Of a DNA stretch of 64,000 bases, positions 52,767 through 53,505 are shown one piece after another (positions within the stretch are counted from its first letter, which is position 1; every line of letters begins with the position of its first letter). Made by a program: the position numbers and the translations under genes. The DNA lies in the NCBI RefSeq assembly GCF_007197555.1, contig NZ_CP041614.1, positions 3,340,001-3,404,000 of the forward strand, read 5' to 3'. The notes beneath the pieces were generated by a model. That model had not been told where the DNA came from. It searched no databases and saw nothing but the letters and a program-made list of their open reading frames with translations. Source of the DNA: Shewanella psychropiezotolerans. GTDB taxonomy: Bacteria > Pseudomonadota > Gammaproteobacteria > Enterobacterales > Shewanellaceae.

Positions 52767-52870
52767 CGCGGGATGGGGCAGTATAAAGCTACTCGGACTC
52801 AACTCTTTACGAAATCAAGGCGAAGATCGTTGCCCTGCTTTTATAAAAAGTAATCCAGCTCCCGCAACCA
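52767..52870 (+). pseudogene. fMet-derived long tRNA-like element, copy 1 (104 nt)
   Basis: The first 16 nt and last ~20 nt are those of tRNA-fMet, including CGCGGGA, TCCCGCA and ACCA. The D-arm, anticodon and T-arm are replaced by a different interior. It differs from copies 2 and 3 at three positions (GGGG for GGAG, one A fewer, AGATCG for AGGTCG). It cannot act as a normal tRNA. Confidence 0.75.
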
Positions 52871-52887
52871 ATTTTAAAAGACACAAT

Positions 52888-52964
52888 ACAACCGTAGCTC
52901 AGTTGGTTAGAGCACTACCTTGACATGGTAGGGGTCGGTGGTTCGAATCCACTCGGTTGTACCA
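52888..52964 (+). tRNA. tRNA-Val (GAC), copy 2
   Basis: Same 77-nt sequence as copy 1. Confidence 0.95.
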
Positions 52965-53009
52965 ATTCTTTAATAAGTAGAATTAAAACAACTTATGGCG
53001 TTTATCGGA

Positions 53010-53114
53010 CGCGGGATGGAGCAGTATAAAAGCTACTCGGACTCAACTCTTTACGAAATCAAGGCGAAGGTCGTTGCCCTGCTTTTATAAAAAGTAATCC
53101 AGCTCCCGCAACCA
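53010..53114 (+). pseudogene. fMet-derived long tRNA-like element, copy 2 (105 nt)
   Basis: Same organisation as copy 1. TATAAAAGC near the 5' end and GCTTTTATA near the 3' end are perfect 9-bp complements inside the acceptor stem. Identical to copy 3. Confidence 0.75.
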
Positions 53115-53158
53115 ATTCTTTATAAGTAGAATTAAAATAACTTATGGCGTTCATCGGA

Positions 53159-53235
53159 CGCGGGATGGAGCAGTATGGTAGCTCGTCGGGCTCATAACCC
53201 GAAGGTCGTTGGTTCAAATCCAGCTCCCGCAACCA
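53159..53235 (+). tRNA. Initiator tRNA-fMet (CAU), copy 2
   Basis: Same 77-nt sequence as copy 1. Confidence 0.97.
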
Positions 53236-53279
53236 ATTCTTTATAAGCAGAATTAAAATAACTTATGGCGTTTATCGGA

Positions 53280-53356
53280 CGCGGGATGGAGCAGTATGGT
53301 AGCTCGTCGGGCTCATAACCCGAAGGTCGTTGGTTCAAATCCAGCTCCCGCAACCA
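53280..53356 (+). tRNA. Initiator tRNA-fMet (CAU), copy 3
   Basis: Same 77-nt sequence; from here most units repeat every ~121 nt. Confidence 0.97.
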
Positions 53357-53400
53357 ATTCTTTATAAGCAGAATTAAAACAACTTATGGCGTTTATCGGA

Positions 53401-53505
53401 CGCGGGATGGAGCAGTATAAAAGCTACTCGGACTCAACTCTTTACGAAATCAAGGCGAAGGTCGTTGCCCTGCTTTTATAAAAAGTAATCCAGCTCCCGC
53501 AACCA
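53401..53505 (+). pseudogene. fMet-derived long tRNA-like element, copy 3 (105 nt)
   Basis: Identical to copy 2, and flanked by the same spacers as the intact fMet genes. Confidence 0.75.

Follow-up and report, generated by a model that had tools for sequence, protein, structure and literature searches.

Pseudo-initiator-tRNA elements in the fMet gene arrays of Shewanella psychropiezotolerans and its relatives

The window, a 64,000-nucleotide stretch of the genome of Shewanella psychropiezotolerans (contig NZ_CP041614.1), carries a tRNA gene array at positions 52563-54449 that comprises ten intact genes for the initiator tRNA (fMet), three for tRNA-Val(GAC) and three elements resembling fMet genes at their ends. 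The first fMet gene, called by ARAGORN, lies on the forward strand at 52563-52639 and the other nine, on the same strand, start at 53159, 53280, 53550, 53671, 53792, 53913, 54034, 54155 and 54276. The first tRNA-Val gene occupies 52647-52723 (+) and the other two start at 52888 and 54373. The elements, which we term pseudo-fMet, are also on the forward strand, at 52767-52870 (copy 1, 104 nt, 17 nt before a tRNA-Val gene), 53010-53114 (copy 2, 105 nt) and 53401-53505 (copy 3, 105 nt, identical to copy 2), and they score 119.0, 129.4 and 129.4 bits, respectively, with model R1. Directly after the array there is a decayed element piece at 54583-54622 (+), matching at 83% over 40 nt. Upstream, at 52475-52525, TTGCAA and TACTAT are separated by 17 nt and followed by AGCGCTCG, an arrangement that by eye is like a growth-regulated tRNA promoter; a consensus scan yielded no promoter in this region.

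All three elements share the ends of fMet, 5' CGCGGGATGG and 3' AATCCAGCTCCCGCAACCA, with C1 and A72 kept, and the acceptor stem with C1:A72 and the encoded ACCA end are the same as in the intact genes. An earlier sequence-only reading had described three fMet-derived copies of 104 or 105 nt retaining the acceptor halves, discriminator and CCA, with copies 2 and 3 identical and copy 1 differing at three positions, and sequence comparison bears this out. One of the three differences is a missing A in the 5' arm of copy 1 and, because of this, the 9-bp pairing TATAAAAGC/GCTTTTATA is exact in copies 2 and 3 only, so that the perfect pairing of the interior ends claimed in that reading is correct for those two copies and fails for copy 1.

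The CAU anticodon in a 7-nt loop is absent from the elements, CTCATAA being replaced by a sequence that begins CTCAACTCTTTACG, and alignment with fMet places ACTCTTTATAA as the sequence opening the anticodon loop after CTCA, with an enlarged T-loop and an altered D-arm. In copy 2, the CTCA of the fMet anticodon loop and the conserved block ACTCTTTA that follows, which recurs in other genera, lie at 53042-53053 (+), and the GGCGAAGGTCGTTGCC hairpin, flagged as terminator-like and including the fMet stretch CGAAGGTCGTTG, lies at 53063-53078 (+). The AGCTACTCGGACTCA of this copy aligns with fMet AGCTCGTCGGGCTCA and is followed by a new block ACTCTTTACGAAATCAAGG, the fMet-identical CGAAGGTCGTTG, a second new block CCCTGCTTTTATAAAAAGT and AATCCAGC. 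Of fMet, the interior retains some of the 3' anticodon strand together with the variable loop and the 5' strand of the T-stem. The D-, anticodon and T-arms are altered, as had been proposed, whereas their exchange for a foreign interior was too strong a description, since CGAAGGTCGTTG and the AGCTACTCGGACTCA~AGCTCGTCGGGCTCA correspondence remain and the interior is not foreign throughout.

Neither ARAGORN nor Rfam calls any of the three elements as a tRNA. An Rfam search at E up to 10 over 52740-53130, covering copies 1 and 2, gave sense matches to tRNA-Val only, together with two antisense matches below their gathering scores (HPnc0260 and Plastid-ycf2) that overlap tRNA-Val. HPnc0260 was also matched at 54411-54564 on the reverse strand (59.8 bits, gathering score 59), probably as a cross-hit because, at a sister site, the alignment of a weaker match lies across the tRNA-Val antisense strand. 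Folding gave z-scores of -2.1 for copy 2 and -1.1 for copy 1, on stretches shifted by one base, and the fold of a single copy is therefore not striking.

Three forms of the element have been distinguished among the loci and genomes labelled here by L and G numbers, respectively. The full type, that of the window, carries one block in the anticodon loop and a second in the T-loop, complementary to the first in most relatives, and has an altered D-arm. In another form, found at L039 and L144, the D- and T-arms of fMet are intact and the anticodon arm alone is changed; at the Shewanella locus L144 (2399-2489, reverse strand) the stem TCGGG/CCCGA is preserved around a 17-nt anticodon loop (CTCAACTCTTTATAAAC). 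This enlarged-loop gene scores 31.0 bits with the Rfam tRNA model (gathering score 29) and is called tRNA-Leu(CAA) by ARAGORN; its sequence is that of fMet, and the label may thus be an annotation error in public Shewanella genomes. The half type has a lost or decayed 5' acceptor half and often forms tandems that follow a terminator-like stretch, or sits between fMet genes. The existence of the form with intact D- and T-arms suggests that the loop insertion came first and the remaining changes later, the whole fMet of L144, in which the anticodon loop alone is enlarged to 17 nt, being a plausible early stage. The spacers between fMet genes (53115-53158 in the window, and other array spacers) carry a ATTCTTTATAAG.AGAAT inverted repeat, conserved in many species, that resembles the ACTCTTTATAA block. 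Going by this resemblance, the repeat is a possible source of the insert in Shewanella; the spacers inspected in Acinetobacter and Aliamphritea have none.

A blastn search (E up to 0.01) matched 23 of 99 genomes, including that of the window, 20 of them belonging to the genus. Two of the three matches outside the genus read as chance (L045, L047) and one is a real relative, from another family of the order (G098), with two half-type cores (GGGCTCAACTCTCTTAATAGAAAGTCGAAGG) at L044:1507 and 1673, one of which lies behind a T-rich stretch. A covariance model built from 32 elements (32 of the 40 extracted were used in the alignment with fMet) was searched under strict filters in 129 Shewanella genomes, all of which match it because intact fMet itself scores 60.4 bits. 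Above that score, just below which the list is cut off, there are 112 listed places in 42 of the 129 genomes, the three of the window included and, together with the occurrence of three near-identical 104/105-mers, this is more than chance would produce. Conservation in Shewanella relatives is thereby established, and the one-off damaged tRNA copied locally, which the sequence-only reading had named as its refuting case, is refuted. Analysis of the family was based on 103 of the 112 places (101 unique, mostly 102-108 nt long), among them a few members that are not of the full type, such as the 91-nt form of G031 (L115). Those left out were copy 3, which equals copy 2, the chimera G010:3003305 (L121:5306-5446) and seven places on contigs outside those retrieved (two in G153:C47 and one each in G153:C102, G155:C54, G155:C43, G138:C39 and G017:C40). 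When up to three mismatches were allowed in 126 Shewanella genomes, the core was found in 89 and its backwards control in 24; 37 carry no core match.

The core also occurs in other genera, and a Psychromonas-family relative carries it as TCGGGCTCA-ACTCTTTATAA without the T-loop block. An exact pattern for the core 20-mer (TCGGRCTCAACTCTTTATRA), scanned in 84,980 species genomes with one genome per species, gave 43 matches in 27 stretches, where about two would be expected by chance from the collection size. The hosts are Shewanella, three Psychromonas, Aliamphritea spongicola, Acinetobacter schindleri and A. kookii. An fMet-like 3' half continues from the core in all 43, and a called tRNA-Met lies within 1 kb of 37 of them, the other six being in stretches without one. 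At up to three mismatches, 19 of 24 Psychromonas-family genomes match, against 6 of 24 for the backwards control, and in at least three of the 19 the matches look unrelated (L156, L161, L172). In a sample of the order (384 genomes, 113 genera) the exact core is present in four genomes, from two genera, and a core 21-mer at up to two mismatches, a pattern that the copies in the window also fail, was matched in none of 369 genomes (272 genera) sampled from the class. The tRNA-derived parts follow the host's own fMet (CGCTACCA in Acinetobacter, CTCTCGCAACCA in Psychromonas), and ACTCTTTATAA recurs unchanged, a sameness for which the exact pattern itself selects, close variants being common in the scans at up to three mismatches.

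In the two Acinetobacter loci (L135, L139) the elements are interspersed with fMet genes a short way upstream of the presumed rimP-nusA-infB genes, infB encoding a factor that binds fMet-tRNA, and the Shewanella element loci are presumably in MATE or rlmL neighbourhoods. RimP of L135, compared with 61 genomes of the class, gave no match like that expected from its own genus, the best showing 47% identity. Among the Psychromonas-family arrays, L126:1149-1988 carries five half-type cores at 90-nt spacing followed by three at 153-nt spacing and, at L151:1447-1871, an open reading frame that by eye resembles an IS30-type transposase lies beside a Psychromonas array with nine cores.

Across 41 mapped loci, some of which are contig ends, the elements take fMet slots, the spacers beside them being 44-45 nt, equal to those between fMet genes, in many arrays, although other spacings occur. 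An element is followed by tRNA-Val after 2 nt, as fMet is elsewhere, ten times in five of the 41 loci; at L119 fMet and element largely alternate, and an element is the first mapped member at L096, L119 and L122. Recombinants between fMet and element are present at L028:1782-1912 and L049:250-354. Interiors within one locus show a mean identity of 0.90 (91 pairs, 30 loci), with locus means ranging from 0.70 to 1.00 and the lowest values at L117 (0.70) and L099 (0.76), and such copies are more alike than copies from other genomes (0.90 vs 0.77). The shared slots, the recombinants and the likeness within loci are marks of unequal crossing-over and conversion, and they are what was found on looking for a tRNA pseudogene family spread by array recombination. 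The amplification of the elements together with real tRNAs, proposed from the window, is seen in fMet slots of arrays across relatives.

Several comparisons bear on whether the elements are constrained. Between genomes the interior shows an identity of 0.77, against 0.65 and 0.63 for the 40-nt flanks downstream and upstream, respectively (5028 pairs; 102 of the 103 elements, one having no flank, from 42 genomes), and it exceeds the downstream flank in 4344 of the 5028 pairs. Comparable values were obtained with array-type spacers only (61 elements, interior 0.80 vs spacers 0.72), with the lowest-scoring element per genome (0.74 vs 0.62) and with one high-scoring element in each of 32 genomes (0.85 vs 0.70, shuffled 0.58), although interior conservation is inflated in that the elements were found by similarity, and conservation extends to the array spacers. 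The interior holds islands conserved at 90% or more. The short open frame noted earlier is incidental: the spacing between two conserved landmarks is kept modulo 3 in 61 of 96 parsed relatives (5 of the 101 elements being unparsed), so that both a peptide and a short coding gene are rejected.

In the acceptor stems of the 101 unique elements, 119 pairs among positions 2-7 have changed. Of these, 68 still pair (55 changed on one side and 13 on both) and 51 are broken (49 one-sided, two two-sided), some of them in elements whose 5' half is wholly replaced. The G5-C68 pair has become T-A in all seven analysed elements of G056, G161 and G017, where the intact fMets begin with the usual CGCGGGA, and we take this as real compensation arising from one event or a few. 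The CCA ends are damaged in several elements and the acceptor stems have decayed in many copies; processing is therefore not protected everywhere.

In the full type the two inserts complement each other, with a mean of -6.9 kcal/mol against -2.6 when shuffled (49 elements, one per locus), and the copies of the window are among the weak ones (copy 2, -3.5). Own partners pair hardly better than swapped ones, however (-6.9 vs -6.4 kcal/mol, 253 of 5000 permutations being as good), and over all 98 elements that could be parsed out of 101, 1825 of 5000 permutations were as good. The RNAalifold covariation term is -0.29. In the half type, on the other hand, pairing of the upstream arm is stronger with the core of the same element than with that of another, a level reached in 9 of 10000 permutations for 57 non-redundant elements and in 25 of 10000 for a 13-member subset; at L203, for example, the arms read GCTTATAA../..TTATAAGC against the usual GTTTATAA/TTATAAAC. 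Covariation of the interior, which the sequence-only reading had asked about, thus extends to the half-type arm and core and is marginal or absent in the full type. Covariation of inverted repeats can also arise through template switching, without selection. The 9-bp stem was rejected as the fold of the family: its arm was parsed in 71 of 101 elements, with nine pairs in 20, eight in 20, seven in 25 and fewer in six, counts which use the best ungapped 9-mer partner per element and have no chance baseline behind them.

A number of known systems invite comparison. The rtT repeats of E. coli tyrT are tandem units with a short tRNA 3' end that lie beside a tRNA operon and have been copied by recombination. 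The elements resemble them in this, whereas they keep both acceptor halves or a whole 3' half, and Rfam scans gave no rtT match. Introns of tRNA-fMet and tRNA-Ile2 belong to group I, and a group I intron was considered and rejected here, the anticodon-loop insert of about 10-18 nt being too short for self-splicing and Rfam returning no intron match. The elements do share with the self-splicing introns reported from tRNA-fMet or tRNA-Ile2 (PMC8450103) an insertion that hides fMet from tRNA finders. The pseudo-tRNA tRNA-Other of Bacillus cereus is likewise a bacterial tRNA-like sequence that does not decode, and deletion and RACE data led to the proposal that it acts as part of a larger regulatory RNA; unlike tRNA-Other, which flanks a pathogenicity island, the elements are fMet-derived and multi-copy, lie in fMet arrays and recur across species (PMC3399842). 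Ordinary tRNA pseudogenes in tandem arrays resemble them in the lost anticodon, the array context, the many decayed copies and the concerted evolution, and differ in lacking the same disruptive block across genera, conserved islands and covarying half-type arms. A search of titles and abstract openings, outside which most subscription papers fell, found no published description of these elements.

Mobility was considered in two guises. In the genome of the window, at E up to 1, copies of the interior are confined, besides fMet matches, to the array and the adjoining decayed piece at 54583-54622, giving no support to the tRNA-targeting mobile insert that had been suggested, and an exact interior 24-mer gave no match in the genome contig collection. 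The elements could instead be relics of integrative elements that recombined at the fMet anticodon loop, the repeated 3' halves being displaced halves of attachment sites. This would account for half-types in which the 3' half is intact from the anticodon loop to CCA and the 5' half replaced or decayed, and for their tandem arrangement, about 150 nt apart and separated by a terminator-like stretch (L127, L137, L144 and, similarly, L143 of Aliamphritea). Such integrases cross over at the anticodon loop, however, and this loop is precisely what is destroyed. Moreover, among the matches listed, phage and plasmid searches gave only intact tRNA parts (Val, and the fMet 3' half) or matches at chance level; the matches listed for the half-type query (10 of 10 phage and 12 of 26 plasmid records) are the fMet 3' half, no phage or plasmid record covers 80% of that query, and a pattern scan of viral contigs for the core gave zero. 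Nor does any of 5426 E. coli genomes have a place covering 80% of the half-type query, the matches listed being the fMet 3' half. No integrase was recognised by eye in the window's open reading frames beyond 46 kb, nor in the first 70 residues of those at 18 loci, and we regard an integrative origin as highly improbable. Horizontal spread of element-bearing fMet arrays could explain the distant genera without any function, and the patchy distribution, with the core so rare in the order and class samples and yet present in Aliamphritea and two Acinetobacter, speaks for it. The match of the tRNA-derived parts to the fMet of each host speaks against it, any transfer therefore having to be followed by conversion, and so does the difference between the Acinetobacter loci, upstream of rimP-nusA-infB, and the MATE or rlmL neighbourhoods of Shewanella; we consider this explanation, too, improbable.

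A stronger rival is that the elements constitute a functional non-coding RNA family on an initiator-tRNA scaffold, in which the core and its complementary arm form a working stem. Such an RNA might be a decoy for an initiator-tRNA-binding factor, an element that governs how the array transcript is processed or how stable it is, or an antisense RNA displayed on a tRNA scaffold. The restriction of the exact core to positions beside fMet sequence in all 43 matches, the half-type covariation, the conserved islands and the two-sided acceptor changes of G056, G161 and G017 are consistent with function, and the most telling point in its favour is that distant genera share one core while the tRNA parts resemble those of the host. 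Against this stand, above all, the many decayed copies, the weak full-type covariation and the 37 Shewanella genomes lacking a core match; template switching and the low RNAalifold term weaken the covariation argument further. In the genome of the window, an exact complement of the core is found nowhere outside the elements and, at one mismatch, five further sites occur, compared with two for the backwards sequence used as control. We hold it to be possible, although the less probable course, that conserved non-decoding initiator-tRNA-like RNAs are made together with fMet and act on a partner of the initiator tRNA or on the array transcript, and that they represent a so far undescribed family, present in the fMet arrays of Shewanella and Psychromonas and sporadically elsewhere in the Gammaproteobacteria.

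The best reading of the three elements is that they are probably non-decoding initiator-tRNA genes of an old family, copied with the arrays. We see about an even chance that the arrays, as they recombine, carry them along chiefly as passengers that can still be processed, and that selection acts to some extent on the fold. On this passenger reading, unequal crossing-over and gene conversion would duplicate and homogenise the elements just as they do the intact genes, and the elements would be transcribed within the polycistronic RNA of the array, from which RNase P and 3' trimming would cut them out. Many copies may keep the acceptor stem and CCA because the neighbouring tRNAs mature only if these enzymes can still excise the element; in several arrays a Val gene lies only 2 nt downstream of an element. 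The predicted product is an RNA of roughly 105 nt with tRNA ends that would neither decode nor be charged by MetRS, because it has no CAU, the anticodon which MetRS requires.

The passenger reading is weakened by the decay of acceptor stems and CCA ends, and because passive copying leaves unexplained the same ACTCTTTATAA in Shewanella, Psychromonas, Aliamphritea and Acinetobacter, where the tRNA parts are those of the respective host's fMet. It would be easy to set a pseudo-tRNA aside as an isolated mishap, but this fMet derivative recurs at 112 listed places in 42 of 129 genomes of the genus and its core is found in more than one order. Its recurrence poses the question of whether array recombination alone keeps a dead tRNA for so long, or whether the cell may use uncharged mimics of its initiator tRNA.
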